64,000 nucleotides of DNA, from positions 5,908,001 to 5,972,000 of the forward strand of contig NZ_CP011270.1 of assembly GCF_001610835.1 (NCBI RefSeq), written 5' to 3'. The stretch is from Planctomyces sp. SH-PL14 (GTDB lineage: Bacteria; Planctomycetota; Planctomycetia; Planctomycetales; Planctomycetaceae). Positions 4,310-40,912 of this stretch are shown here, piece after piece. The position numbers and the translations under genes were made by a program. Positions within the stretch are counted from its first letter, which is position 1. Every line of letters begins with the position of its first letter. The notes beneath the pieces are model-generated. The model saw only the letters and a program-made list of their open reading frames with translations. It ran no database searches and was not told where the DNA came from.

Positions 4310-4327
4310 ACGCGACGCGGAGCCGCA

Positions 4328-4870
4328 TCACGCCTTGGGCCACATCGCTCCAAAGAGGCTGGCGACGATGACGGCGTAGAGGACCGACTCGACGATGTGT
4401 CCGACGATCCGGCAGCGGAACCAGATGGCGTGCTGGACGAGGGCGGCCAGGAACGTCATGAGCGAGGCGGTCGAGACGAATCGGAAGACCGTCAGGAAGT
4501 CGGCGCCCGCGGGGATCGCCAGCCGCGCGAGGTAGGCGAGGCCGATGCAGACCACAAAGAAGTAGAGGAGCGTGAGGGCGAGGTTCCGGCCCATCGTCAT
4601 GCCGGGGAAGAGCGTCAGGACCCCCATGGGTCCCCGCTGCATCTTGGTCATGTATTCCTCGCTCTGCTTCGTCCCGGGGTCCATGCCGGGGACCATGTAG
4701 TTGCCGGGCTGGGCTCCGACTTGCCTTAGGGCGTCGAGGACCGGGTCTTCGTCCGGGAGCTTCTTCCAGTCCTGTGCGTGGAGGCCGAGGACCATCCAGG
4801 AGAGGAAGCTGGTGAAGAACAGGGCGACGGTCGCGAGGACGATCGGGAGAAACAGCGGCTGGATCAGCAT
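4328..4870 (-). CDS. Hypothetical multi-pass membrane protein, 180 aa
   Basis: The 180-residue product has a clear N-terminal membrane segment (PLFLPIVLATVALFFTSFLS) and about three more in the C-terminal half (LALTLLYFFVVCIGLAYLA, TASLMTFLAALVQHAIWF and VESVLYAVIVASLFGAMW). Between them lies a soluble loop of about 65 residues rich in Pro, Gly and Met (VPGMDPGTKQSEEYMTKMQ). I recognise no named family. The gene is convergent with the Hint-domain gene, whose stop lies about 20 bp away, and it has an ATG at 4870 with no better alternative. Confidence 0.7.
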   Translation of the reverse strand: MLIQPLFLPIVLATVALFFTSFLSWMVLGLHAQDWKKLPDEDPVLDALRQVGAQPGNYMVPGMDPGTKQSEEYMTKMQRGPMGVLTLFPGMTMGRNLALTLLYFFVVCIGLAYLARLAIPAGADFLTVFRFVSTASLMTFLAALVQHAIWFRCRIVGHIVESVLYAVIVASLFGAMWPKA

Positions 4871-5067
4871 GGTGGTGTCCTCTGGAAGCCCGGACGAGAA
4901 GGTGGCGGAGGGCGTGACGACCGCGATGCCCGTCAGGCTAGTTCGAGGGGGAACCCGCGGGAAGCGTCCGTTGGCGGGTGAGTGGTCTCGTCAGCTTTAG
5001 CCACTGCTTCGTACACTGGCGTGCGGTGAGGAATCGATCTTTCGAATCGCTTGGAGGCCAGCGAAAC

Positions 5068-5727
5068 ATGCGCGTCACCCTGCTGCTGATCGTCAGCTTT
5101 GCCGTCGCCGGGTGTCAGAGAGGCGGGACGCCGCCGAAGGGGGAGGCGGCCGCCCCGCCGAAGCGGCCGGACAATGAGGTCCGTACGGTCTTCCGTTCAG
5201 ACGATGCGACCTACGTCGTCGCACCGGACCGGACGGGCGGACTGGAGATCACCCCGCACGACTGGATCGGCGGGCAACTCGTGGCGCGTCCCCGTGCGGA
5301 GGTGATTCCGTTTCCGCGGAAGGAGACACTGGGAAAGATCGGGGCGATCCGCTGCGATGAACAGTTCGGCTCGATCGTCTGTGTCGCGGTGTATGGCAAG
5401 GGGCCGTCGAATCCCGATGCGCCGCGGTGGTTGTGGCACTGGTTCAACGGAGAGCGGTGGCGGACGGGAAAGATCGACGCCCCCGCCCAGAGCTTTTGCT
5501 CGGCGGTGTTCTCTCACGGGCGGGACAATATGCGGGCCGTGTTTGAGGTCTTTCGGGAAGACGGGAAAGAGCAGCGGCACGGAGCGCTGATCTACGACAA
5601 CCCCTGCATGAGCAGCGCCAGCGATGAAGGGGACGGGGGCTGGTTTCACCCCGCGGCGGACCTGCTCGACCCCAAGGCGCTGAAGTCGTCGCCTCTGGCG
5701 ATGCCGGAGGCTCCTCGGGGGACGTGA
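5068..5727 (+). CDS. Putative lipoprotein, 219 aa
   Basis: The ATG at 5068 was chosen because it gives a lipoprotein signal (MRVTLLLIVSFAVAGCQRGG, lipobox VAGC with Cys16) and is preceded by a GGAGG motif about 11 bp upstream. The mature part is strand-rich with several Trp residues (PRWLWHWFNGERWRTGKID), suggesting a beta-propeller-like or WD-like compact domain on the outside of the cytoplasmic membrane. No family is recognised. It is convergent with the Tat-exported protein at 5811-6254. Confidence 0.68.
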   Translation: MRVTLLLIVSFAVAGCQRGGTPPKGEAAAPPKRPDNEVRTVFRSDDATYVVAPDRTGGLEITPHDWIGGQLVARPRAEVIPFPRKETLGKIGAIRCDEQFGSIVCVAVYGKGPSNPDAPRWLWHWFNGERWRTGKIDAPAQSFCSAVFSHGRDNMRAVFEVFREDGKEQRHGALIYDNPCMSSASDEGDGGWFHPAADLLDPKALKSSPLAMPEAPRGT

Positions 5728-10274: not shown

Positions 10275-10601
10275 TCCTTGCCGGCACGACTCGGCTCGCT
10301 CAAACCCAACGTGCGACGGCAGCCTGGGGTCAAGGGGGCCACGCCCCCTTGCCGCCGGAGGCATTTTCGTCGCGGAACCGTGGTACACAACGGACGTCTC
10401 CTTTGTGGTACCCGCGTTGAGGACTCCCTCACATCACACCGCTGGCTTTGCAATCCCCGCGGGTTGGTGAGGGGGCATACGGCACGTCGTCCGCGCTTGG
10501 ACACTCGCTCCTTCAGAGAGATCGAGACGAGACGGGCCTCCGGCGGGCAAAGGGGCGTTGCCCCTCTGCACTCCCCACCAGGGGTACCCCCTGGACCCGG
10601 T
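10275..10601 (+). repeat. Intergenic structured repeat, copy B (full length, with inverted ends)
   Basis: This is a complete copy of the dispersed element. The left end at 10326-10362 has GGGGTCAAGGGGGCC and ends TTGCCGCCGGAGGC. The right end at 10536-10600 begins GCCTCCGGCGGGCAAAGGGG, the reverse complement pattern of the left end, and carries hairpins GGGGC-gtt-GCCCC and CCAGGGG-tac-CCCCTGG. The centre contains conserved blocks such as CGCGGGTTGGTGAGGGGGC and CCGCGCTTGGA. The copy fills the 507-bp gap between two functionally linked repair genes, and no protein is supported there. Confidence 0.85.
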
Positions 10602-10702
10602 GATTGGATCGGTGATGTTGGGGTGCGCGTCTGCACCCCTCGCTGGGCTCTCCATGTCCTTGTGGTTCGCGCAATGCTCAGCCTTCGGGCTCGTGTTTCC
10701 AC

Positions 10703-12925: not shown

Positions 12926-13083
12926 GGCACTGCAATCATGGCGGATTGGTGAGGGGGCATACGGCACGTCGTCCGCGCTTGGACACGGGATCCTTCAGAC
13001 GTCTCTCGACGGACGGGCCTCCGGCGGGCAAAGGGGCGTTGCCCCTCTGCACTCCCCACCAGGGGTTCCCCCTGGACCCCGGT
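12926..13083 (+). repeat. Intergenic structured repeat, copy D (right half)
   Basis: This copy contains the centre and right end of the element: GGTGAGGGGGCATACGGCAC, then GCCTCCGGCGGGCAAAGGGG, then hairpin CCAGGGG-ttc-CCCCTGG. It ends within a few bases of the stop codon of the convergent GH13 gene at 13086. The left end is missing. Confidence 0.8.
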
Positions 13084-13085
13084 TC

Positions 13086-14729
13086 TTAGGCCGTGGGACC
13101 GTCGGGGCCTTCCACCGCGACCTCGAACACGTGCGCTGTCCACGGCGGAACATCCAGATAAAGACCGTGATCCCGCAGGTCCGCACCCGCACGCCAGTAC
13201 ACATCGCTCCCGAGCCGGTCGCTCAAGCGGATCGTGTGCGCCGCCAGCTCCCCCCACGGCCAGCGGACATACCCCTGCGCCGGACCCGCCGAATTGTTCA
13301 CCGCCACCAGCAGCCGCGCATTCCCCTTCGTCCACGACATCGTGATGAACGACGCCGCACTCCCGTTCCCCTCCCACGCCGGATAACACTCCAGCAGCAT
13401 CCAGTCCCCGTTCCGGACCACATCGCTCGCCACAATCGGCCGCAGCCGCTCGTAATACGCCGCCAGCCCCCCGTTCACCGGCTCCTCCGGACCGCGGACC
13501 AGGTGCGGCGAGACCCGCACCTTCCGACCTTCGAACTGCCCCTCCTGAAAGAACCGCATCCCGGGACTGAGATACGTGATCGCCGCCGCCGCAGGATGGA
13601 CGTTGTCCGCAAAAGCGGTCGCCCCCCGGGCCTCGTCGTGGTTCTCGATGAACCGGGCCAGCCGGTCCTGAAAGGCAAGCGCCCCCCGCAGATGACCCCG
13701 CACGCTCGCTGCCGGCTCGTGGCGCAGCCGGTCATAGAGCCGCTTGTCGTACGTCCAGTCGAACCCCTGCTGCTGCAGCTCCCACTCCAGGTCCCAGTAC
13801 ACTTCCGCCAGGAACCGGAACCCCGGATGCGACGCCTTGGCCGCCTCGATCGTCCCCGGCCAGAACGGCTCCATCGCGATCCCCCAGGTCTTCTGGAAGA
13901 CATCGGGAAGAACCAGCATCGCCATGTCGCAGCGGACGCCGTCGCAGCGCTGGGCAATCGACAGGAGCTCCTCCCGCATCGCCTCCCGCAGACCGGGGTC
14001 GCCGTAGTTGAGCTGGAGCGCGTCGGGCCAGCCGGGGAAGAAGGGATCGCGGCCGAACGCAAGATACTCCGGGCCGTCGGGGAGCGCCGCGCGGAAGTAG
14101 TTGTGCGGCTCCCGCGCCGCCTGCTCCGCCGTCCCGGCGACGTAGAACTCCGGATGCTCGTCGAGAAAGCGGTGGTCGAGCCCGGTGTGGTTCGGGACGA
14201 AGTCGAGCATCAGCCGCAGGCCCCGCGCCGCCATCCGGCTCCGCAGCCGGGCCAGGGCCGCGTCACCGCCGAGAGCCGGGCTCGCCGCGTACTCGCGGAT
14301 CGCGAAGCCCGAGCCGCCGATGTCTTCATCGGAGAGGTCGGAGAGCGTCGCCTCAAAATCCTTCCGCCAGTCGGGGTTCGTCCGCGAGACCTGCCGTGAG
14401 CGGGGGCTGGTGGACCAGACGCTGAGCCACCAGATCCAGTCGAAGCCCATCCCCCGGATCCGGTCGAGCTCCGCGTCCGGGATGTCGTCGAGCGTCGCCG
14501 GGCGGCCGAGGCGGCGGCTCAGGTCGGTGAGGTAGACCCGCGTGTTGATCTGGTAGAGGGCCGGATACCGCGCCGCCGGCGGGAGCGGCGTGTTCCGCGT
14601 CGCCGCGGGGGCCGGCGCGGAGACGGTCTTGGCAGCCGCCGGTTTGGAGGCGGTCGCGGCGGCAGACGTGGTCGCGGCGCCGGAGGTCGTGGCAGCCGAG
14701 GCCGGAGCGGAGGACAGGGGTGTGTTCAT
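13086..14729 (-). CDS. GH13 alpha-amylase-family glycoside hydrolase
   Basis: The ATG at 14729 gives 547 residues; about 50 N-terminal residues are Ala-rich and disordered. The (beta/alpha)8 domain shows the GH13 regions in order: FVPNHTG (region I), GVRCDMAML with nucleophile Asp268, FLAEVYWD with acid/base Glu309, and ENHDEARGA with Asp365. A C-terminal beta domain follows (NARLLVAVNNSAG). No signal peptide is evident, so it probably acts on alpha-glucans in the cytoplasm. It lies 92 bp downstream of the GH63-like glucosidase on the same strand, and the pair likely works on the same storage or osmolyte glucan; the exact specificity cannot be read from the sequence. Confidence 0.9.
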   Translation of the reverse strand: MNTPLSSAPASAATTSGAATTSAAATASKPAAAKTVSAPAPAATRNTPLPPAARYPALYQINTRVYLTDLSRRLGRPATLDDIPDAELDRIRGMGFDWIWWLSVWSTSPRSRQVSRTNPDWRKDFEATLSDLSDEDIGGSGFAIREYAASPALGGDAALARLRSRMAARGLRLMLDFVPNHTGLDHRFLDEHPEFYVAGTAEQAAREPHNYFRAALPDGPEYLAFGRDPFFPGWPDALQLNYGDPGLREAMREELLSIAQRCDGVRCDMAMLVLPDVFQKTWGIAMEPFWPGTIEAAKASHPGFRFLAEVYWDLEWELQQQGFDWTYDKRLYDRLRHEPAASVRGHLRGALAFQDRLARFIENHDEARGATAFADNVHPAAAAITYLSPGMRFFQEGQFEGRKVRVSPHLVRGPEEPVNGGLAAYYERLRPIVASDVVRNGDWMLLECYPAWEGNGSAASFITMSWTKGNARLLVAVNNSAGPAQGYVRWPWGELAAHTIRLSDRLGSDVYWRAGADLRDHGLYLDVPPWTAHVFEVAVEGPDGPTA

Positions 14730-22130: not shown

Positions 22131-22378
22131 GGCCCAAGGACCCGGAGGCACTTCCATGAGGAACCGTGGTACGCAACGGACGTCCCCTTTGTGATGCCGG
22201 CGCTGGGGAATCCACGCTCGGTGCGGATTCCCCGCGGGTTGGTGTGGGGGCATACGGCACCGTGTCCGCGCTTGGATACGGTCTCCTTCAGACATCCCTC
22301 GACGAGAGGGCCTCCGGCGGGCAAGGGGGCGTTGCCCCCTTGCATCCCCCACCAGGGGTACCCCCTGGACCCCGGTAA
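22131..22378 (+). repeat. Intergenic structured repeat, copy E
   Basis: This copy has a shortened left end (GACCCGGAGGCACTTCCATG) and an intact centre and right end. The right-end hairpins are perfect here: GCAAGGGGGC-gtt-GCCCCCTTGC and CCAGGGG-tac-CCCCTGG. The centre also holds an inverted pair, GGGGAATCC and GGATTCCCC, around CACGCTCGGTGC. It occupies the space between the broken lipoprotein gene and the kinase at 22616. The remaining 22379-22615 holds no gene and presumably the kinase promoter. Confidence 0.82.
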
Positions 22379-22615
22379 TTTGGGCGAGCGGGCGGCCTTT
22401 GGGAGGCTCGCCTTTCTCCGGGTGCGGCACCGGGAATTCTCTGGCTGTTCGAACGACCGGCGAACGACATCCTTCCTTCAGGCATCCGCCAGGCACATGC
22501 CCCCGCCAGCCCCGGCGGTCAATGTGCCACCGATTCAGTACGATCGCCTCCGCACCCACTTCATCGCCCGAGAGACGTGCAGGACTCCCCGCACGATCCA
22601 TTCCGGAACCCTTCC

Positions 22616-25600
22616 ATGCCGACCCCCGGCGACCACCTCCGCCCCCTCAACGGGGGACTGACCGCACTGCTTCGCGGTCAGCGGGAAGCGCTCGAAACGG
22701 CGATGAACGGCCAGCCCCTCCCGGCGTCGCTCGGCATCCTGGTCCGCACCACCGTCGAGCAGCTCGGGCCGGAGACCCGCGCGGCGTTCTACCTCGCGAA
22801 CGAAGACGGGACCGCGCTCCATCACGCCGTCGGGATGCCGGACGATTACGCCGCGGTCGTGGACGGGTTCAGGATCGGTCCCGAGTCGCTGGCCTGCGGG
22901 CTCGCGACCGCGACCGGCGAACCGGTCCTCACCACCGACGTCATGACCGACCCCCGCTGGGAACCGTGGCGCGAGGTCGCCCAGCGGTTCGACTATCGCG
23001 GCTGCTGGAGCTTTCCGATCCGCACGACGACGGGAAACGTCGTCGGCACCCTGGCGATCTACTCCCGCCAGCCGCGTGAGGCGACCGAGCAGGACCGGGA
23101 GCTGGCCTCCCTCATCACCCACACCGCCTCCGTCATCCTCTCCCGGCACAAGGAAGCCGAAGCCCGCCGGCAGGCCGAACACGCCCTCCGCCAGAGCGAG
23201 GAAAAGTATCGCAGCCTGTTCGACTCGCTCGATGAAGGGTTCTGCCTGATCGAGGTTCTGTTGGACGCAGCGGGAAGGGCCTCCGACTACCGCTTTCTCG
23301 AAACGAACCCGGCGTTCGCACGGCACACCGGTCTGAAGGACGCCGTCGGAAGGACCATCCGGGAGCTCGTGCCCGATCACGACGCCCATTGGTTCGAGAT
23401 CTACGGAGAGATTGCGCGGACGGGCGAGCCGCGGCGGTTCGAGATGCCCGCCGAGGCTCTCGGGCGGTTCTACGACGTGTATGCGTTTCGCGTGGGGCCG
23501 CCGCACGAGCGGCGCGTCGCGGTCCTGTTCAACGACATCAACGACCGGAGGCGGGCCGACATCGCTCTCCGGGAAAGCGAGGAGAAGTACCGGTTGCTGT
23601 TCGAATCGATCAACGAGGGGTTCGCGATCCTCGAGACGATTCGGGACGATCGGGGGCGGCTCGTCGATCTGGTCTATCGCGAAGTCAACCCGGTCTTTGC
23701 CCGCCTGACCGGCTTTCAGGTCCAGCCCGGGCAGCGGGTCCTCGAGGTCCTGCCGGACATCGAGGACCACTGGCTCGCCTACTACGACCGCGTGTCGTCG
23801 ACCGGCGTGCCGGAGGTGGTCGAGGACTACAACCGCGATTCCGACCGCTGGTATCGGACGAACGCCAATCGCGTCGGCGGCGCGGGGAGCCCGCTCATCT
23901 CCGTCGTGTTCGAGGACATCTCCGTGCGGAAGCGGGCGGAAGCGGTCCTGCGGGGGACCCAGGAGCGGCAGGCCTTTCTCCTGCGGCTCAGCGACGCGAT
24001 CCGACCGTTGAACGACGCCGTGGAGATGCAGAGGGAGGCGATGCGGCTCCTGGCCGAGCACTTGAAGGTCGCGGTTGCTTCATACTTTGAGCTGGACTCC
24101 GACGAGGACGGATTCGTCCAGGCGGCCGGGTACGAAGACGGCAGCATCCGGCTCCCCGACCGGATGCGGATGTCCGACTACGGTGCCGATATCGTGGCGA
24201 ACTACCGCGCGGGGCGGACCATCGTGGTGGTGGACACGGAAGCCGACCCGCGGTTCGAGTCGCAGCGGGAGGCCTACCGGACGATCGGCGTGCGGGCGTG
24301 GGTTGGTGTGCCGCTGGTCAAGGAGGGGCGGCTCCTTGTCGTCCTGGGAGTGCTGGAGCGAACGCCCCGGGACTGGAGCGGCGCGGAGGTGCAGCTGTTC
24401 GAAGAAGTCGCCGAACGGACCTGGGCCGCGGCCGAGCGGGCCCGGACAGAGACGGCGCTGCGGGAGAGCGAGTCGCGGCTGCGGCTGGCCCTCGCCGCCG
24501 CCCGGATGGGGATCTGGTCGTGGGAGGTCTCCGGCGATGATCACGTCCGGGACGCCAATCTGAATCGTCTGCTCGGACTGGAGCCGGTGCAGACGACCCG
24601 GCCTCTCTCGGAGTTCCTGAGTCACATCCATCCCGAGGACCGGACGCGGGTGGCGGATGCGTTCCAGAACTCCGTGCGGCAGGGGGGGAGTCTCGATGTC
24701 GAGTTCCGCGTCGTCTGGCCGGACGGGACGGTCCGCTGGCTGCGGGATCAGGGGGACGTCTTCGGCACCGCCGGGGAGCAGGCGACCCACATGGCGGGGG
24801 CCTGCGTGGATGTCACCGAGCGGCGGGAGGCGGTGGATCGTCTTCGCGAACTCAATACGACGCTGGAGTCGCGCGTCGAAGAGCGGACGGAGTCGCTCCG
24901 GGCCCTGGCGGTCGAACTGGCCCGGACGGAGCATCGGGAGCGGCGGCGGCTTTCGCACGTCCTGCACGACCATGTGCAGCAACTCCTGGTGGCGGCCAAC
25001 CTTCACGTGGGGCTGGCGGCGATGGACGCGCGGTCGCCGGATGCGAAGCAGTCGTTCGACCGGGCGCTGGCGGTGATCCAGGAGGCGATTCAGGCGAGCC
25101 GAAGCCTGGCGGTCGAGCTCATTCCTCCGCTGCTCGACGACGGAGGGCTGGCGGCGGGGCTGGAGTGGCTGGCGAAGCGGTCGCGCGACAACCTGGGTCT
25201 GAAGGTCCAGTTCACCTCGGACGGCACGACGGACGTCGAGGACGCGGACCTGCGGGCGCTGCTGTTCCAGGCGACACAGGAGCTGCTCCTCAACGTGGTG
25301 AAGCACGCGAAGGCGACCGAGGCGAGCATCCGGCTCACGCGTCCCGCGGCGGACCAGGTCCGGATCGAGGTGGCGGACCGGGGAGCCGGGTTCCGCAGCC
25401 GTCCGACCGAGATCCATCGCGGTTCGCCGGAGTCGTTCGGCCTGTTCAGCATCCGGGAGCGGGTCCGGCATCTCGGGGGCGGGGTGGAGATTGAGACCGC
25501 TCCGGAACGCGGTTCGCGGATTCGCGTGACCGTTCCCGTCAAGTTGCCGGAGCCGCCGCCGCCGGTGACGCCCGCAGCGAGGGGGCCGCATGGGCCGGAG

Positions 25601-25984
25601 ACGCCGGAGGAGAATGTGATCCGCATCCTGGTGGTCGACGATCACAAGATCCTTCGCGAGGGGCTCATCTTTGTGTTGAACCGGGAGCCCGGTTTCAAAG
25701 TGATCGGAGAGGCGGCGGATGGGCCGCGGGCGATCGAGCTGGCGGGGGAACTCGCTCCCGACGTGGTGCTGATGGATGTCAGTCTGCCGGGGATGACGGG
25801 GGTGGCGGCGACGCAGCGGGTGATGGCGGCGTCGCCGGAGGTGCGGGTGATCGGGCTGTCGGCGCACGACGATCCGTCGGTACGGCAGGCGATGCGGGAG
25901 GCAGGGGCGGTGGAGTATTTCACGAAGGGTGGCCCGTCAGCGCAGTTGATCGCGTCGATCCGGTCGGTCGTGAGTCAGAGCTGA
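22616..25984 (+). CDS. PAS/GAF multi-sensor histidine kinase (HisKA_3 type) with C-terminal receiver
   Basis: The ATG at 22616 gives 1,122 residues; a GTG 39 bp upstream is an alternative. Domain order is GAF (about 30-185), PAS (195-315), PAS (325-450), GAF (455-615), PAS/PAC (620-740), a HisKA_3/NarL-type dimerisation domain with phospho-acceptor His784 in LSHVLHDHVQQLL, an HATPase_c domain with QELLLNVVKHAKA and ADRGAGF, and a receiver with Asp1054 (VVLMDVSLPGM). There is no membrane segment, so it is a soluble cytoplasmic sensor. Fusing a NarL-family kinase to a receiver without the usual LuxR-type helix-turn-helix is notable; the phosphoryl group may be passed on or control the kinase itself. 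No partner regulator gene is adjacent. Confidence 0.9.
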   Translation: MPTPGDHLRPLNGGLTALLRGQREALETAMNGQPLPASLGILVRTTVEQLGPETRAAFYLANEDGTALHHAVGMPDDYAAVVDGFRIGPESLACGLATATGEPVLTTDVMTDPRWEPWREVAQRFDYRGCWSFPIRTTTGNVVGTLAIYSRQPREATEQDRELASLITHTASVILSRHKEAEARRQAEHALRQSEEKYRSLFDSLDEGFCLIEVLLDAAGRASDYRFLETNPAFARHTGLKDAVGRTIRELVPDHDAHWFEIYGEIARTGEPRRFEMPAEALGRFYDVYAFRVGPPHERRVAVLFNDINDRRRADIALRESEEKYRLLFESINEGFAILETIRDDRGRLVDLVYREVNPVFARLTGFQVQPGQRVLEVLPDIEDHWLAYYDRVSSTGVPEVVEDYNRDSDRWYRTNANRVGGAGSPLISVVFEDISVRKRAEAVLRGTQERQAFLLRLSDAIRPLNDAVEMQREAMRLLAEHLKVAVASYFELDSDEDGFVQAAGYEDGSIRLPDRMRMSDYGADIVANYRAGRTIVVVDTEADPRFESQREAYRTIGVRAWVGVPLVKEGRLLVVLGVLERTPRDWSGAEVQLFEEVAERTWAAAERARTETALRESESRLRLALAAARMGIWSWEVSGDDHVRDANLNRLLGLEPVQTTRPLSEFLSHIHPEDRTRVADAFQNSVRQGGSLDVEFRVVWPDGTVRWLRDQGDVFGTAGEQATHMAGACVDVTERREAVDRLRELNTTLESRVEERTESLRALAVELARTEHRERRRLSHVLHDHVQQLLVAANLHVGLAAMDARSPDAKQSFDRALAVIQEAIQASRSLAVELIPPLLDDGGLAAGLEWLAKRSRDNLGLKVQFTSDGTTDVEDADLRALLFQATQELLLNVVKHAKATEASIRLTRPAADQVRIEVADRGAGFRSRPTEIHRGSPESFGLFSIRERVRHLGGGVEIETAPERGSRIRVTVPVKLPEPPPPVTPAARGPHGPETPEENVIRILVVDDHKILREGLIFVLNREPGFKVIGEAADGPRAIELAGELAPDVVLMDVSLPGMTGVAATQRVMAASPEVRVIGLSAHDDPSVRQAMREAGAVEYFTKGGPSAQLIASIRSVVSQS

Positions 25985-28006: not shown

Positions 28007-30031
28007 TCAGGTGGATGGCGGAGCAGGGGGCTGGGGCGGGCGGAGGTGGCCTCCCGTGCGGCCCGTCAGCGATGCCGTCACCGCCGTCAGTTCGTGCGGA
28101 TCGACCGGCTTCGTCAGGTGCACCTGAAAGCCGGCCAGCAGCGCCCGTCGGCGGTCCTCCAGCCGCGCGAACGCCGTCAGCGCGATCGCCGGGAGCGACT
28201 GGTACGTCACGCCGCGGCGGCGGATGTCCCGGATCAGATCGAGACCGTCGCGACCCGGCATTCCGAGGTCGCTGATCAGGATGTGCGGGCGGAACGGCTC
28301 GATCGCCTCGAGCGCGGCGTTGACGCTCGCCACCTCCCGCACCTCGGCGCCCCGGCCCGTGAGCACCCGCTTCACCATCGCCCGCGAGTCGTCATCGTCC
28401 TCGACCAGGAGGACCCGGATCCCCGACAGGTCGACCCGCCAGCCCGCTCCGACCGTCGGCGCCTCCGGAGCGGCGGGACTGTCGGCTGCCGCCGGTTCTC
28501 CGGCGGCGGACTCCTCGTGCGGCTGCGACAGGCGGACCGAGCTGACCGGGACCCGGACGATGAACGTCGCCCCCTTGCCGTCCCCTTCGCTCTCCGCCTC
28601 GATCGTCCCGCCGTGCATCTCGACGATCTGACGGGCGATCGCCAGTCCCAGCCCCAGTCCGCCGTGTTCGCGGGTGCTGGTCCCGTCCCCCTGCCGGAAC
28701 CGCTCGAAGACCAGCGGCAGGAGCGTCTTCTCGATCCCGCGTCCGTTGTCCGCGACCCGGATCTCGACGTGCGAATTGACCCGCCGGACCGAGACCTGCA
28801 CGCGTCCGCCGCGGGGGGTGAACTTGACCGCGTTGTTGACGAGGTTCCACAGCACCTGCTGCAGCCGCGAGGGGTCGCCGAGGATCGGGCCGGCGGCGGC
28901 CGAGAGGGTCTGGATCAGCCGGATCTCCTTGGCGTCCGCGGCGGGGCGGACCGCCGACAGCGCCGCTTCCACGAACGCCGCGGGATCGATCGCCTCGACG
29001 TCGAGGCGGATCTTTCCGCTCGTGATCCGCGAGATGTCGAGGAGGTCGGCGATCATCTGCGACTGCGCGTGCGAGTTCCGCTCGATCGCCTCCAGCCCTT
29101 CGTTCAGCTCCGCCGGAGTGGAGCTTCCCATCCGCAGGAGCTGCGACCAGCCGACGATCGCGTTCAGCGGCGTCCGCAGCTCGTGCGAGAGAGTCGCCAG
29201 GAAGTCGTCCTTGAGGCGGTTGGCCCGTTCGGCCTCGCCCCGCGCGGCCCGCTCGCTCGCCAGCAGCTCCTCGCGCTCCTGCTCGTGCCGGAGGCGGTCG
29301 GTGACGTCGTTGACGATCGCCAGCCGCAGGCCGGGTTCGTGATACTGCGACAGGCTGCACTCGAGGTAGACCGGCGTGCCGTCGGACCGCCGCAGCGGGA
29401 GCGTCCCCCGCCAGGCGAGGTTCTCGCTCAGCTCGTGCCGGATCGCGGCGATCTCCCCCTGCCGCTCCTCGGCGACGAAGTCGGTCACGACCCGGCCGAT
29501 GAGCGCCTCCCGATCCACGAGCAGCAGACCGCAGAGGGCCGGGTTGGCGTCGCGGCAGACGAGCCTGTCGTCGAGGATCGCCACGCCGTTGAGGGCGTTC
29601 TCGAAGATCGCCCGGAACCGCTCGTCGCTCGCCCGCCGCTCCGACTCCGCCCGGCGGGCGCGGAGGAAGGCGTTGACCGTGGCGACGAGGACCGGGGGCT
29701 CGATCGGATGGGTCAGGTAGCCGTCCGCTCCCGACTCCAGGCCGGTCACCTTGTGGCTGGTCGTGACGAACGTGGCCGAGAGATGCACGATCGGCAGATG
29801 GGCCGTCGTGGGGTTCTCTCGGAGCATGCGGCAGACGGTGAAGCCGTCGATGTCCGGCAGGTTGACGTCGAGGACGACGAGGTCGACCCCTTCGAGCGCC
29901 CGGCGGTAGGCGTCCTGTCCGGTCTCCGCCTCTGTCACGGCGAAGCCCGCCCCCCGCAGGATGCGGGTGGTGGAATAGAGGGTGGCCGGGTTGTCGTCCA
30001 CCACCAGGATCCGCGGTGTGTCACTCCCCAT
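28007..30031 (-). CDS. Hybrid histidine kinase: receiver-PAS-HisKA-HATPase-receiver
   Basis: The 674-residue soluble protein carries an N-terminal receiver (6-125, Asp55 in VVLDVNLPD), a PAS domain (about 135-255), a HisKA domain with His283 in [13 protein letters not shown], an HATPase_c domain (VWNLVNNAVKFTPRGG-like block, VADNGRGIEK, GGLGLGLAIARQIV) and a C-terminal receiver with Asp588 (ILISDLGMPG). It is the last gene of the stressosome operon, overlapping the upstream kinase by 11 bp. In related operons such kinases receive or relay the stressosome's output. No DNA-binding output domain is present. Confidence 0.9.
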   Translation of the reverse strand: MGSDTPRILVVDDNPATLYSTTRILRGAGFAVTEAETGQDAYRRALEGVDLVVLDVNLPDIDGFTVCRMLRENPTTAHLPIVHLSATFVTTSHKVTGLESGADGYLTHPIEPPVLVATVNAFLRARRAESERRASDERFRAIFENALNGVAILDDRLVCRDANPALCGLLLVDREALIGRVVTDFVAEERQGEIAAIRHELSENLAWRGTLPLRRSDGTPVYLECSLSQYHEPGLRLAIVNDVTDRLRHEQEREELLASERAARGEAERANRLKDDFLATLSHELRTPLNAIVGWSQLLRMGSSTPAELNEGLEAIERNSHAQSQMIADLLDISRITSGKIRLDVEAIDPAAFVEAALSAVRPAADAKEIRLIQTLSAAAGPILGDPSRLQQVLWNLVNNAVKFTPRGGRVQVSVRRVNSHVEIRVADNGRGIEKTLLPLVFERFRQGDGTSTREHGGLGLGLAIARQIVEMHGGTIEAESEGDGKGATFIVRVPVSSVRLSQPHEESAAGEPAAADSPAAPEAPTVGAGWRVDLSGIRVLLVEDDDDSRAMVKRVLTGRGAEVREVASVNAALEAIEPFRPHILISDLGMPGRDGLDLIRDIRRRGVTYQSLPAIALTAFARLEDRRRALLAGFQVHLTKPVDPHELTAVTASLTGRTGGHLRPPQPPAPPST

Positions 30032-31217
30032 GAGCGCCTCCTTCGCCGGCCGGCGCGCCGCCGCCGTCGGGACCGTCGGCCGATGCCCCGTCCCCGTCCC
30101 CGTCCCCTTCGCCCCCGCCTCCCTTGAAGCGGATCGGGATCGTCAGCGAGAAGGTGGACCCGACCCCCGGCTGGCTCGTCATGGCGACCTGCCCGCCGAG
30201 GAGCTCGGCCATCTTCCGGCTCAGCGAGAGTCCCAGGCCCGTCCCGCGCCACTTCCGCTGGAGGGGGGAGTCGATCTGGACGAAGTCGTTGAACACCGCG
30301 CCATGATACTCCGGCGCGATCCCGATGCCCGTGTCCGCCACGGAGAACGTGACGCGATCGGGTCCCTCGCTGCGGGCGGTGACCCGGACCTCGCCGCGGG
30401 GGGTGAACTTGAGGGCGTTGGAGATGAAGTTCCTCAGGATCTGCGAGACCTTGGTGTCGTCCGTGTAGAGCCGCGGGATTCCGACCGGCTCTTCCAGGAT
30501 CAGGGAGACCGCCTCGGAGGTCAGGAGCGGCTTGAACATCCCGCGGATGGCGTGGAACAGGTCCACCATCTCGAACCAGGCGGGGGAGATGCTGATCCGC
30601 CCCGCCTCGATCTTGGCGAGGTCGAGGAGGTCATTGACCATCTCGCTCAGTTCGACGGCGGAGGTCTGGATGAAGCTGACCTGCTTCCGCTGCTCGGCGG
30701 TGAGGTGGCCGTCCATCTCGTCGAGAAGGATCCGGACGATGCTGCGGATGGAGCCGAGCGGCGTGCGGAACTCGTGGCTCATGTAGGAGAGGAACCGGCT
30801 CTTGAGCTCGGAAGCCTCCTGGAGCTGGGCCGCCTTGTCGTCCAGCTCCGAGTAGAGGGCGACGACCCCCTGGTTGGTCTCGGTCAGTTCCTCGTCGAGC
30901 TGCTGGATCCGCTGGTCGCGGTCGGCGAGCTGCAGCCGCAGTCCCTGGATCTCCCGCTCCAGCCGCACGAGCCGCTCGGCGGCGGTGTCGGCGATGGTCG
31001 GCATGTCGGGGATGGTGGTCTCCGTGAACGAAACGGTGTCGGTGGCGGCGACCGTCTCGGCGCTGGCCCCGGTGTCCGGGCTGGCCGCGGCGACGGGAGA
31101 CGACCCGGCGACCGCGGGTCCGGAGCCGGTCGCGGACGCGGAGCGGTCCGTTGCCGCCGCGGTGTCGGCCGGAGAGGAGAGATCGCGTCGATCGCGGTCC
31201 GGATCAGCCGGCGGCAT
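30021..31217 (-). CDS. Histidine kinase, cytoplasmic, in stressosome operon
   Basis: The 398-residue protein has a low-complexity Ala/Ser/Thr-rich N-terminus (1-75), a coiled coil (ERLVRLEREIQGLRLQLADR and following, about 80-135), a HisKA domain with His148 in LSYMSHEFRTPLGS, and an HATPase_c domain (ISNALKFTPRGE, VADTGIGIAPEY, GTGLGLSLSRKMAELLGG). The last 30 residues are a Gly/Asp tail. It has no sensor domain of its own, so the coiled coil may connect it to the stressosome proteins. Its start overlaps the end of the phosphatase gene by 14 bp, and its end overlaps the hybrid kinase, indicating translational coupling. Confidence 0.9.
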   Translation of the reverse strand: MPPADPDRDRRDLSSPADTAAATDRSASATGSGPAVAGSSPVAAASPDTGASAETVAATDTVSFTETTIPDMPTIADTAAERLVRLEREIQGLRLQLADRDQRIQQLDEELTETNQGVVALYSELDDKAAQLQEASELKSRFLSYMSHEFRTPLGSIRSIVRILLDEMDGHLTAEQRKQVSFIQTSAVELSEMVNDLLDLAKIEAGRISISPAWFEMVDLFHAIRGMFKPLLTSEAVSLILEEPVGIPRLYTDDTKVSQILRNFISNALKFTPRGEVRVTARSEGPDRVTFSVADTGIGIAPEYHGAVFNDFVQIDSPLQRKWRGTGLGLSLSRKMAELLGGQVAMTSQPGVGSTFSLTIPIRFKGGGGEGDGDGDGASADGPDGGGAPAGEGGAHGE

Positions 31218-32256
31218 CGCTCCTCCCTTCTGCTCCGCGGCGAATGACCGCCACAGTCAGGTCGTCGCGGCCGCGGTCGAAGTCCCGCGCCAGGACGCCA
31301 GCGATGACCCCCGGATGCCGCTGCGCCAGGCCGGGGTAGGCGTCGAGCGACCAGCGGCTCTGCAGGCCGTCCGAATGCAGGATCAGCAGGGCGTTGTGGG
31401 GGTACTCGTAGTCGAAGGTCTGGACCTTGCGGACCTGGACGCCGACCGTGCCGTTGTGGGAGAAGAGTCCGCGGCTCGTGCCGTCGGCCGCGCTGCGGAG
31501 GCTGCCGGCGATGTTCCCGACGGCGGCGAAGTTCAGGCTCCCCCGCCGGGCGTCCGCCTGGGCGTAGGCGACCGCCCCGCCGCGGCTCCCCCGCATGGTC
31601 TCATGGGCATCGGTCAGGAGCCCGCTCACCGCCCCGAACGGGTCGCGGTCGAAGACGTCTCCCGCCAGCTCGGCGGCGGCGTTCGCCTCGGGACCGTGTC
31701 CCAGGCCGTCGGCGACCATCACGGCGAGCAGCCCCTCCCGTTCCTCGATCCGCCACGTGTCTCCCGAGACGGTTTCCCGGGGCATGGGGCGGTTCACGAC
31801 TCCCCAGCTGAAGCCGGGCTGGTCCCGCGCGGCGGCGGCAGCGGAGCGGTCGACCGGCCGGTCGATCCGGGCGTAGATCACGGTCCCGCCGGGGACGGAC
31901 GAATGGAGGTCGAAGACGGTCGAGAGCCGCCGCATCGCGCCGAAGCCGTTGCCGGGGGTCCCGCCGGTCGAGTAGCCGTCGGTCAGGCAGGCCCCCAGGT
32001 TCTCCATCCCCGGTCCGCGGTCGTCGCTGAGGAGGATCAGGGAGGTCCGGGCGGCGGTCGATTCGGTCTGGATCAGGAGCCGGCCCTCGACGGCATAGCG
32101 GACGAGATTGGTGGCGAGCTCGGCCGCCACGATCGCCGCGTTTCCCGCCTCGACGGCGCCGAAGCCCGCGAGTTCCGCCAGCCGGTTCGCTTCCCGGCGG
32201 GCTTCCCCGACCTGACTCCGCTCGGTGACGGCGATGACTGATTGATGTCCGCGCAT
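31204..32256 (-). CDS. RsbT/RsbW-type ATPase fused to PP2C (RsbX/SpoIIE) phosphatase
   Basis: The 350-residue product joins an HATPase_c anti-sigma-like domain (1-135; VAAELATNLVRYAVEGRLLI, SDDRGPGMENL, GNGFGAMRRLSTVFDL) to a PP2C/SpoIIE phosphatase (150-345; AVMVADGLGHGPEANAAA, AVGNIAGSL, ILHSDGLQSRW, DDLTVAVIRR). The acidic metal-ligand motifs ADGLGHG and RDDLTV are intact. In Bacillus the free phosphatase RsbX resets the stressosome by dephosphorylating RsbR and RsbS; here the same activity is likely combined with a second kinase-like module. It follows RsbT by 72 bp. Confidence 0.9.
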   Translation of the reverse strand: MRGHQSVIAVTERSQVGEARREANRLAELAGFGAVEAGNAAIVAAELATNLVRYAVEGRLLIQTESTAARTSLILLSDDRGPGMENLGACLTDGYSTGGTPGNGFGAMRRLSTVFDLHSSVPGGTVIYARIDRPVDRSAAAAARDQPGFSWGVVNRPMPRETVSGDTWRIEEREGLLAVMVADGLGHGPEANAAAELAGDVFDRDPFGAVSGLLTDAHETMRGSRGGAVAYAQADARRGSLNFAAVGNIAGSLRSAADGTSRGLFSHNGTVGVQVRKVQTFDYEYPHNALLILHSDGLQSRWSLDAYPGLAQRHPGVIAGVLARDFDRGRDDLTVAVIRRGAEGRSDAAG

Positions 32257-32328
32257 ACTGTTGAGTTCCGGCTCAGGCGCCCCTGCCTGGTGCCGGCCGC
32301 CGGTCGGCGGGATTTCCGCCGGGTGGGG

Positions 32329-32733
32329 TTATTTCCACCGAGTGATGGTGACGCGGGTTCCTTTTCCCGGTTCGCTTTCAATATCGAACTCGTTCACGAG
32401 GCGCCTGGAACCGGTAAGTCCCATCCCCATTCCCGATCCGCTGGTCCAGCCGTCGGTCAGCGCCAGCTTCATGTCCGGAATTCCCGGTCCCTCGTCGCTG
32501 AACGTGAGCCGCAGGCCGGCCCGGTCTCCGTCCCTTAGCACTTCCCACACCATTCGCCCGCCGCCGCCGTAAATGACGGTATTCCGCGCCAGCTCGCTGG
32601 CCGCCGTGACCATTTTGGTCTGGTCGACGAGGCTGAACCGCAGCTCCTGCGTCAGCTTCCGGACCGCCTGCCGTGCCATGACGATCTCGGGCTCGGTCTG
32701 GACCGGCTGTTCACCACTGCTCAGAACCGGCAT
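32329..32733 (-). CDS. rsbT: RsbT-like anti-sigma-type serine/threonine kinase
   Basis: With the ATG at 32733 the product is 134 residues, the usual RsbT length. It has the GHKL ATPase motifs: N-box AASELARNTVIYGGGG, G1 SDEGPGIPDM and G2 GSGMGMGLTGSRRLVNEFDI. RsbT is held by the RsbR-RsbS stressosome, phosphorylates both on stress, and is released to activate a downstream target. The start lies inside the end of rsbS (23-bp overlap), the layout seen in classic rsbRST operons. The downstream target is not evident; no RsbU-type gene is found in the window. Confidence 0.92.
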   Translation of the reverse strand: MPVLSSGEQPVQTEPEIVMARQAVRKLTQELRFSLVDQTKMVTAASELARNTVIYGGGGRMVWEVLRDGDRAGLRLTFSDEGPGIPDMKLALTDGWTSGSGMGMGLTGSRRLVNEFDIESEPGKGTRVTITRWK

Positions 32734-33175
32734 GTCCAGACCCCTTTCCCGTCGAGGGGCCGCGGTTTCCGGGGGCCGGTTCGTCGTCGTCCGGCTCGGC
32801 GTCGGCGTCGGGGGCATCCTCCGCATAGAGGGAGCGGAGGTAATTCATCCCCCGCTCGACGTCGAGCGCCATCTTGACCCCCGGCAGCGAGAGCCCGAGC
32901 TCGACGAGCGTGATCGCCACGGCGGGCTGCATCCCGACCACGACCGTCTGGGCGTCCAGGATGCGGGACATGCCGGAGATGTTGGCGATCATCCGGCCGA
33001 TGAACGAGTCGACCATCTCCAGCGCGGAGATGTCGATCAGGACCCCTTTGGCGCCCGTCTTCTCGATCTTGGACGTGAGGTCATCCTGCAGCCGCAGGGC
33101 CATCTGGTCCTGCATGTCGACTTGAATGGTGACGAGCAGAAACTCGCCCATTCGGAGAATCGGGATCCGGTCCAT
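32711..33175 (-). CDS. rsbS: RsbS-like STAS stressosome scaffold protein
   Basis: The 154-residue protein closely follows Bacillus RsbS in pattern: IPILRMGEFLLVTIQ, then KGVLIDISALEMVDSF, then VGMQPAVAITLVELG. The STAS domain covers about residues 5-115. Ser57 in MVDSF aligns with the serine phosphorylated by RsbT. Unlike the Bacillus protein it has a C-terminal acidic, Pro/Gly-rich extension of about 35 residues, part of which is encoded by the bases that overlap the rsbT start. It is 21 bp downstream of rsbR. Confidence 0.93.
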   Translation of the reverse strand: MDRIPILRMGEFLLVTIQVDMQDQMALRLQDDLTSKIEKTGAKGVLIDISALEMVDSFIGRMIANISGMSRILDAQTVVVGMQPAVAITLVELGLSLPGVKMALDVERGMNYLRSLYAEDAPDADAEPDDDEPAPGNRGPSTGKGSGHAGSEQW

Positions 33176-33196
33176 GAGCAGCGGCCTTGAGGGGAA

Positions 33197-34054
33197 TCAG
33201 CTTTTGCGGGAGACGACGAGGTTCAGCCGCTTCAGCGCCAGCCCCAGCGCGTCGGCGAGGTTCGCCTTGGTGGTGACTCCCTGCAGGTCGACTCCCAGGT
33301 GGACGATGGTCTGGGCGATCTGCGGCCGCACGCCGGAGATGATGCAGTCCGCCCCCATCAGCCGGATCGCCGTGACGGTCTTCAGCAGATGCTGGGCCAC
33401 GAGCGTGTCGACGGTCGGAACGCCGGTGATGTCGATGATCGCGATCTCCGATCCGGTCTCGACGATCCGCTGCAGCAGCGACTCCATGACGATCTGCGTC
33501 CGCTCGCTGTCGAGCGTTCCGATCATCGGGAGGGCCAGGATCCCGTTCCAGAGCTTGACCACCGGCGTCGAAAGCTCCAGGAGCTCCTGCTGCTGCCGGC
33601 GGATGACGTCTTCCCGCGTCTTCTGGAAGGCGCGGATCGTCAGCATCCCCATCTTGTCCAGCAGTTCCGTGGCCCGCCACGTCTCGTCGGCCAGGGCTTC
33701 GGCGTCTTTGCCGAACTCCGTCTTCAGGCGGGCGAAGAGGGGTTGCTTGAACGAGAAGACGAACCGCGCGGTTTCATCCGCGGAGAAGCCCTGAAGGACG
33801 CGGCTGCGGGAGACTTCCGAGAGAAAGTCTTCGATCGCCCTCCATTCGGGGCGGCTCGTGCTGGCGATATCGCCGGTCTGGGCCGCCTGCTGGAGGTGGG
33901 AGACGAACTCGGTCGTCTGGGTCTTGAGCTCGGCCTCGTTGATGCGGTTATCGCGGCCGGAGCCCCCTTCGCGGAGAAGCCGCATCCATTCGGAGACGAG
34001 GTCTCCTTCATGCTTCTTGAGTACGTCCGCGATGCGGGTGGAGGCCTTGGCCAT
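33197..34054 (-). CDS. rsbR: RsbR-like stressosome sensor (N-terminal sensor domain plus STAS)
   Basis: With the ATG at 34054 the product is 285 residues. The N-terminal domain (about 1-155; VLKKHEGDLVSEWMRLLREG, RPEWRAIEDFLSEVSRSRVL) is of the RsbRD/non-haem-globin type. The STAS domain follows (ELSTPVVKLWNGILALPMIG, AIIDITGVPTVDTLVAQHLL, GADCIISGVRPQIAQTIVHL). The Thr in VDT (about residue 217) lies in the loop phosphorylated by RsbT in Bacillus RsbR. As the first gene of the operon it presumably sets the input specificity; the signal is unknown. Confidence 0.92.
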   Translation of the reverse strand: MAKASTRIADVLKKHEGDLVSEWMRLLREGGSGRDNRINEAELKTQTTEFVSHLQQAAQTGDIASTSRPEWRAIEDFLSEVSRSRVLQGFSADETARFVFSFKQPLFARLKTEFGKDAEALADETWRATELLDKMGMLTIRAFQKTREDVIRRQQQELLELSTPVVKLWNGILALPMIGTLDSERTQIVMESLLQRIVETGSEIAIIDITGVPTVDTLVAQHLLKTVTAIRLMGADCIISGVRPQIAQTIVHLGVDLQGVTTKANLADALGLALKRLNLVVSRKS

Positions 34055-35510: not shown

Positions 35511-35801
35511 AGCCCCGGGTCCAGGGCTGGAAGCCCTGGCCGCCGGAGGCGCTCGCGTGAGGAACCGTTGTAGGCCACGGACGTCCCCTTTGTGGGGCCA
35601 GCATTGAGGACTCCTTCAACCGATGCCGCTGGGTTTGCAATCCCCGCGGGTTGGTGAGGGGGCATACGGCACGGCGTCCGCGTTTGGAGACGAGATCCTT
35701 CAGACATCTCTCCACAAGAGGGCCTCCGGCGGGCAAGGGGGCCAGAAAAACAACACAGGCCCCCTTGCATCCCCTGACCAGGGTGCCCCTGGACCCGGCT
35801 C
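35511..35801 (+). repeat. Intergenic structured repeat, copy F (expanded hairpin loop)
   Basis: This copy is nearly full length. The left end has CCAGGGCT-gga-AGCCCTGG followed by CCGCCGGAGGC. In the right end the usual three-base loop is replaced by a 14-base A-rich loop (35744-35757), while the stem is kept as an 11-bp perfect pairing (35733-35743 with 35758-35768). The last hairpin is CCAGGG-tgc-CCCTGG. Together with the bases to 35967 it fills the gap upstream of the kinase; no other gene is seen there. Confidence 0.82.
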
Positions 35802-40588: not shown

Positions 40589-40912
40589 GCTGGCCGGCAC
40601 GGCTATGCCACCTCAAACCCATTGTGCGACGGCAGCCGGGGTCAAGGGGGTCACCCCTTGCCGCCGGAGGCGCTTCGATGAGGAACCGTGGGACACAACG
40701 GACGTCCGCTTTGTGGGACCGGCGGCGAGGACTCCTCCACATCACACAGCTTGCTTTGCAATCCCTGCGGGCTGGTGAGGGGGCATCCGGCACGGTGTCC
40801 GCGCTTGGATACGCCCTCCTTCAGACATCTCTCGACGAGAGGGCCTCCGGCGGGCAAAGGGGCGTTGCCCCTCTGCACTCCCCACCAGGGGGACCCCCTG
40901 GACCCCGGTGAG
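40589..40912 (+). repeat. Intergenic structured repeat, copy G (full length)
   Basis: This full copy has the left end at about 40637-40671 (GGGGTCAAGGGGGTCACCCC) and the right end at 40842-40909, with hairpin CCAGGGG-gac-CCCCTGG. Centre blocks match copy B closely. It fills the gap between the methyltransferase gene and the gene at 40991. Confidence 0.85.

Follow-up and report, generated by a model that had tools for sequence, protein, structure and literature searches.

A stressosome operon of Planctomyces sp. SH-PL14 with a HATPase-PP2C phosphatase and a sensorless histidine kinase carrying a conserved linker helix

The operon and its gene products

The minus strand of a 64,000-nucleotide stretch of the Planctomyces sp. 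SH-PL14 genome (contig NZ_CP011270.1, positions 5,908,001 to 5,972,000; hereafter the window) carries an operon from position 34054 to 28007, which encodes in this order the stressosome proteins RsbR, RsbS and RsbT, a phosphatase with a fused HATPase domain (here termed X'), a histidine kinase and a hybrid kinase (Table 1). Our main subject is a conserved helix directly in front of the HisKA domain of the histidine kinase, a candidate entry point for the stressosome signal. The gene order had been proposed in an original prediction made from the letters alone, and Pfam confirmed all six genes with RsbRD_N and STAS, STAS, HATPase, HATPase_c_2 and SpoIIE, HisKA and HATPase, and REC, PAS, HisKA, HATPase and REC domains, respectively. 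The predicted overlaps of 11-23 bp at three junctions were recovered as 23 bp (RsbS/RsbT), 14 bp (X'/histidine kinase) and 11 bp (histidine kinase/hybrid kinase), RsbR and RsbS lie 21 bp apart, RsbT and X' 72 bp, the ATG start codons of all six being our choice. RsbU, RsbV, RsbW and SigB are absent at the locus, as had been stated, so that it does not represent a SigB general stress operon.

The stressosome core is complete with respect to its characteristic residues. RsbR combines an N-terminal sensor and a STAS domain with both phospho-threonines, i.e., the previously noted VDT threonine (Thr217) and a second one, Thr249 (AQT), and RsbS, a STAS protein with the likewise predicted phospho-serine Ser57, adjoins RsbT, a HATPase with its catalytic box. 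Since these residues are kept across the rows of relatives (VDT in 45/45 and AQT in 42/45 RsbR rows, VDSF in 46/48 RsbS rows, and the SE..RN box in 52/52 RsbT rows), their presence in the window is not a matter of chance. Away from the operon, the genome harbors three extra RsbR-like genes (C1:893126, C1:902052, and C1:4364322; positions 4037-5137 and 13002-13538 of the fetched stretch L007 and 3272-4129 of L008), with no RsbS or RsbT found beside them in the stretches fetched. The copy at C1:902052 looks broken, its N-terminal piece lying in a different frame, and near-identical open reading frames flanking the copies in L007 and L008 suggest a segmental duplication.

In X', none of the 18 aligned rows, one of which (L036) entered the alignment from mid-gene, deviates at the metal-ligand positions of the PP2C half (D166, D183-G184, D296-G297, and D331-D332) or at the HATPase box residues. 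A single-chain structure model reached a pTM (predicted TM score) of 0.89. The PP2C half matches the structures 3zt9 and 3w40 and resembles RsbX as well as a phosphatase described in a stressosome study, and the HATPase half matches SpoIIAB. X' thus shares the PP2C fold, the metal ligands and sequence similarity with RsbX but is not a single-domain protein, and because of its N-terminal HATPase_c_2 domain we classed it as RsbX-like rather than RsbX. The invariant residues and the RsbX match make the stressosome-resetting role proposed earlier for the fused phosphatase plausible, and X' would probably dock through its own RsbT-like HATPase domain onto the STAS domains of RsbS and RsbR. An X'-type HATPase-PP2C gene is also located on a plasmid of Streptomyces sp. 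LRE541 (L108, 4205-5182), with no RsbR, RsbS or RsbT profile match beside it.

The two kinases carry the hallmarks of two-component proteins, namely H-boxes (SHEFRTP at 147 in the histidine kinase, SHELRTP at 282 in the hybrid), HATPase domains and phospho-Asp receivers, with the exception of the conserved REC1 lysine. Receivers normally carry lysine at this position. In the window, REC1 possesses Asp55 and His108 in place of the usual lysine, and REC2 shows the motif SDLGMPG. Within 55 rows, in which the window is counted twice, the REC1 phospho-Asp is kept in 54, and the position of the usual lysine is occupied by histidine in 46 and by lysine in none. A response regulator at which the relay could end, equipped with an output domain, is not encoded in the operon.

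Table 1. Features of the operon, with positions in the window.
Feature	Position	Strand	Basis
RsbR: RsbRD_N sensor domain and STAS, Thr217 and Thr249	33197..34054	-	Pfam, residues
RsbS: STAS scaffold, Ser57 (VDSF)	32711..33175	-	Pfam, residues
RsbT: HATPase switch kinase, E47..N51 box and DEGPG intact	32329..32733	-	Pfam, residues
X': RsbT-like HATPase (~8-132) and RsbX/SpoIIE-type PP2C (~150-340)	31204..32256	-	Pfam (HATPase_c_2 and SpoIIE), model
Histidine kinase, sensorless: low-confidence N-terminus 1-71, coiled-coil helix, HisKA (His148), HATPase	30021..31217	-	
Pre-HisKA linker helix of the kinase, residues 103-135, core ETNQGVVALYSELD	30813..30911	-	Conservation, model
Hybrid kinase REC1-PAS-HisKA-HATPase-REC2; REC1 Asp55, His108	28007..30031	-	Pfam, residues

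A conserved pre-HisKA helix and an RsbT-derived domain

The histidine kinase of the window possesses neither a sensor domain nor REC or RsbU_N, and is therefore not an RsbU_N-type output; it carries a long extra N-terminus, and in xanthomonads the kinase consists of barely more than helix, HisKA and HATPase. The helix core TN.G[VI].A[LM][YH] stands directly before HisKA in 57 of 61 kinases encoded behind X', covering four phyla. These kinases comprise the 56 loci of the profile set, L106, in which the helix is present and the kinase core scores under the limit, and L043, L104, L105, and L107; in two more stretches (L047 and L048) X' is present and no kinase was recognised in the part examined. 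Rows from the window, Zavarzinella and xanthomonads served to build the helix profile, and the 56-locus set corresponds to 59 rows minus three duplicates (an all-loci recount gives 61 rows, five being second copies of a genome). The core region shows invariant T, N, G, A, L, and E residues at these 56 loci, and by mean top-residue frequency the helix (0.82) is conserved about as well as HisKA (0.78), with HATPase at 0.70. Control kinases (43 rows, one of them in neither set) gave 0.53, 0.79, and 0.65 (n = 15) and 0.34, 0.65, and 0.54 (n = 27) for the same three regions. The assumption of an ordinary histidine kinase coiled coil is thus not supported, as the controls show no conservation of this stretch. 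In a single-chain AlphaFold model of the kinase, residues 75-165 form a single helix that extends across the linker and HisKA, with a whole-chain pTM of only 0.53.

The helix follows X' also in a sample of 398 Pseudomonadota genomes, where 15 out of 30 kinase loci bear the helix and these same 15 have an adjoining X', the other 15 having neither. The loci were picked by P0005 score (the best match in each of 29 genomes plus one), and the sample was centred on a xanthomonad genome bearing the operon, which accounts for one of the 15 helix loci.

A number of kinases carry an additional RsbT-like HATPase domain (H) in front of the helix, so that the chain reads H, helix, HisKA and HATPase, mostly followed by REC. 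Such fusions occur in Caballeronia, Deinococcus, Sphingomonas, Embleya, Nonomuraea, five planctomycetes (G361, G232, G221, G252, and G296), and at 6 of the 15 Pseudomonadota loci. H scores well with the RsbT profile in many rows, e.g., 87-109 bits in the Deinococcus and Sphingomonas rows and in four of the five planctomycetes, and its ATP-binding boxes are kept in some rows and lost in others. In a tree of HATPase domains, which left out six rows (the very degenerate H of L104, L110, and L111 and, from G232, one X copy and both copies of H), RsbT, X' and H are resolved as separate groups, with H forming one side of a branch (97/87) and falling on the RsbT side rather than with X' (fork 87/95, not starred). 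In the kinase-core tree, based on 34 of the 56 loci and eight controls and rooted for drawing only, the window class without H forms one side of a branch (98/94) and is joined to the Deinococcus H-kinases at 95/84, with the other H-bearing kinases lying around both. Because H-bearing kinases surround the window class, a single loss of H in its clade is the simplest history; most simply, then, the kinase of the window would descend from an H-fused form and would have shed H since. As a side observation, the kinase linker of Embleya and Nonomuraea (L110 and L111) contains the TN.GV.A[LM]Y core twice in tandem, 18 residues apart, and at the Embleya and one Nonomuraea locus the sixth gene encodes a REC-PP2C protein instead of a kinase.

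The helix is not confined to kinases. On two Streptomyces plasmids, the gene after X' encodes a PP2C phosphatase with the helix TNAGVMALY or TNAGVMAMY, and we read the stretch before this helix as a very degenerate H. In tblastn searches, the H-helix stretch of one of these phosphatases matched the kinases of Embleya (1e-13), Nonomuraea (8e-9), and Deinococcus (6e-5). As the helix also precedes a PP2C output, it goes with the stressosome module and not with the kinase fold alone.

Regarding the whole operon, an X' scan of genome contigs, which by construction returns close relatives, yielded 29 loci. At 28 of these, belonging to Zavarzinella formosa and 27 xanthomonads, each of the six genes has a match and the order is unchanged, with frames broken in L035; the 29th is incomplete due to a contig end cutting through it. 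The order was also found in Variovorax and on a Xanthomonas plasmid. A search in other planctomycetes, as suggested with the original prediction, has therefore an answer in Z. formosa and beyond the phylum, and the notion of a planctomycete oddity was rejected on the basis of the xanthomonad and Variovorax loci. Among 392 sampled planctomycete genomes, 26 gave an X' match of any kind, the best locus being a fusion in six, the PP2C part only in three, a single-domain RsbX-like PP2C in 11, and none of these in six. The module crosses phyla, is sometimes plasmid-borne and is uncommon in planctomycetes.

Two further features of the window were noticed. An open reading frame of 1135 residues (22577-25984, plus strand), located a few kb away and read without domain search, resembles a multi-domain sensor kinase with a receiver at its end. 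A dispersed repeat of ~250 bp with ~75-87% identity occurs, within the window and the fetched stretches, at positions 22142-22372, 35543-35796, 40664-40909, 10355-10605, 12941-13083, and 14-201 of the window as well as in genome stretches L001-L005 and L010.

Possible routes from the stressosome to the kinase

Taken together, the data are consistent with a Gram-negative-type stressosome of RsbR, RsbS and RsbT, reset by X', that would switch a dedicated sensorless histidine kinase. By analogy to known stressosomes, stress would lead RsbT to phosphorylate RsbS and RsbR and to leave the complex. Free RsbT, or another RsbT-family domain, may then act on the TN.GV.ALY.EL helix running into HisKA and switch the dimeric kinase to its active or inactive state, similar to the ordering of the RsbU linker by RsbT. 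The kinase would pass phosphate to REC1 of the hybrid, from where the relay could continue to a response regulator, and X' would dephosphorylate RsbS and RsbR, its HATPase half probably docking on their STAS domains. RsbT is reported in PMC12143880 to act on the linker coiled coil of RsbU, and a modular exchange of such linkers is proposed there. We hold with moderate confidence that freed RsbT, or X', acts on the helix and thereby switches the kinase feeding the hybrid, with binding as the presumed step. Redirection of the output into two-component signalling instead of SigB, the core of the original prediction, is well supported by gene content, and as a general idea it has been published (PMC9237108). 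The pre-HisKA helix, the RsbT-like domain fused to the kinase in related operons and the additional RsbR genes did not figure in that prediction.

A more far-reaching proposal, which we put forward tentatively and rate somewhat short of probable, concerns a second portable stressosome output adaptor besides RsbU_N, consisting of an often degenerate H and the TN.GV.ALY.EL helix, which would connect RsbT signalling to any dimeric output placed behind it, either a HisKA kinase or a PP2C phosphatase. If H has been shed in the lineage of the window, the bare helix would have to be addressed in trans by free RsbT.

Several observations weigh against action on the helix and against the adaptor. The helix set of 56 loci is defined by the helix profile itself, and four kinases behind X' lack the core. 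Three of these (L104, L105, and L107) possess H, and the fourth, a PAS kinase of planctomycete G277 (L043), has in its N-terminus DTNREVLALTLEMD, which is helix-like with Glu replacing Gly and stands before the PAS domain. H is weak in several rows, scoring 26, 15, 9, and 18 bits with the RsbT profile in L101, L110, L111, and L104, and in the Streptomyces phosphatases Pfam finds no HATPase in H, which reaches only 16-17 bits with the X'-HATPase profile. Furthermore, H-fused operons keep a free RsbT, too, so the job of H may be other than replacing it. The contact stretch TLRG of Bacillus subtilis RsbU, whose linker residues T89, L90, R91, and G92 are named in PMC12143880, is reminiscent of TN[RQ]G. 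The Listeria protein, however, carries SLRT instead, and the stretches following 14 Pseudomonadota RsbU_N matches contain no TxRG, for which reason a shared docking motif TxRG was rejected as general. Finally, the available portion of PMC9237108 gives no positive interaction result for Vibrio vulnificus RsbT with the downstream two-component protein.

The original prediction had also considered that the fused phosphatase binds a kinase. With the HATPase half of X' instead of RsbT as the partner, the fusion would couple stressosome resetting to kinase control. An X-type PP2C lies nearby on the same strand in all 58 helix-kinase rows (56 loci, with two genomes represented twice), with a visible HATPase fusion in 52, and the box residues of X' are as invariant as described above. 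However, the helix-fused H sides with RsbT and not with the HATPase of X', and X' occurs without such a kinase (L108 and L043), which leaves this explanation unlikely.

We consider it quite unlikely that RsbT signals by Ser/Thr phosphorylation of the kinase or the hybrid rather than by binding the helix, although this route is suggested in PMC9237108 for outputs without RsbU_N, and is in line with the invariant helix threonine T114 and the RsbT box kept in all 52 rows. The helix is equally invariant at N, G, A, L, and E, which would fit packing better than a phosphosite alone, and H is degenerate in the fused kinases L042, L101, L110, and L111 and is for this reason unlikely to act as a kinase there.

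That kinase and hybrid merely share an operon with the stressosome, the helix serving dimerisation or another factor, seems improbable to us. Coiled coils before HisKA are common, the Glu-for-Gly relative of the helix in L043 precedes a PAS domain, and the long extra N-terminus of the window kinase has no assigned role. On the other hand, control kinases do not conserve the helix stretch, and the helix tracks the X' context and the RsbT-derived domain, even on a PP2C output.

The separate SigB-type cascade named in the original prediction as a competing target of RsbT was not found. RsbU_N (PF08673) was absent from all 17 genomes searched (that of the window and 16 with related loci), the B. 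subtilis control being positive, and the SigBFG model exceeded its curated cut-off in 0/12 genomes, including that of the window, and in 1/14 controls. An RsbW-like and an RsbV-like gene lie side by side at C1:4258769-4259522, and five strong PP2C genes are present elsewhere in the genome; action of RsbT mainly through such a remote route is nevertheless very improbable, given the missing RsbU_N and SigB-type factor, the 14-bp overlap of the kinase gene with X' and a gene order conserved across phyla.

Comparison with known systems

The general reading of a stressosome with a two-component output is not new. Stressosomes with two-component, c-di-GMP (cyclic di-GMP) or PP2C outputs have been published, and PMC9237108 describes rsbRSTX modules followed by HisKA/REC proteins, with no RsbU_N detected in most of the downstream proteins considered there. 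What appears to be new is the coupling element, i.e., a conserved helix that, with or without an RsbT-derived domain, would carry the stressosome signal into different outputs; in a literature search, no title or abstract opening within the collection and terms searched mentioned an H-helix adaptor or a TN.GV helix. If true, this would explain the signal transfer from stressosomes whose outputs lack RsbU_N, a route left open in PMC9237108. Helix and fused H offer a concrete, mutable target in culturable hosts such as Deinococcus radiodurans (strain R1 has the operon on MP1, L102), Zavarzinella, Variovorax, and Streptomyces. Finding the same transducer ahead of a histidine kinase in some operons and of a Ser/Thr phosphatase in others would also speak for output modules that can be exchanged.

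On the level of the phosphatase, the matched PP2C structures agree with the PP2C half of X' in fold and sequence, but their chains comprise ~190-200 residues, whereas X' adds an RsbT-like HATPase in front. The RsbU and RsbW domains of Rv1364c (3ke6) likewise combine, going by the entry title, a PP2C with a HATPase kinase domain on a single chain, although the match to X' spans only ~220 columns. To our knowledge, Rv1364c is not part of any R-S-T-X' operon.

On the level of the operon, the Bacillus/Listeria SigB stressosome operon (reference L156) shares RsbR, RsbS, RsbT and an RsbX-type phosphatase with the window, whereas the window locus lacks RsbU, RsbV, RsbW and sigB and has a kinase pair as output. 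The Gram-negative rsbRSTX modules of V. vulnificus and others, as surveyed in PMC9237108, have in common with it the R-S-T-X order, the absence of RsbU, RsbV, RsbW and SigB, and HisKA/REC proteins downstream. They contain a single-domain PP2C RsbX and a globin-type RsbR, in contrast to the HATPase-PP2C X', the RsbRD_N-type RsbR and the sensorless TN.GV-helix kinase of the window. With respect to RsbU_N-type outputs, the nine RsbU_N genomes among the 398 Pseudomonadota and the 15 helix-type genomes do not overlap, and the window is devoid of RsbU_N; yet these outputs, including RsbU_N histidine kinases, resemble the arrangement proposed here in that, following PMC12143880, RsbT-family control is exerted via a coiled-coil helix leading into a dimeric output.

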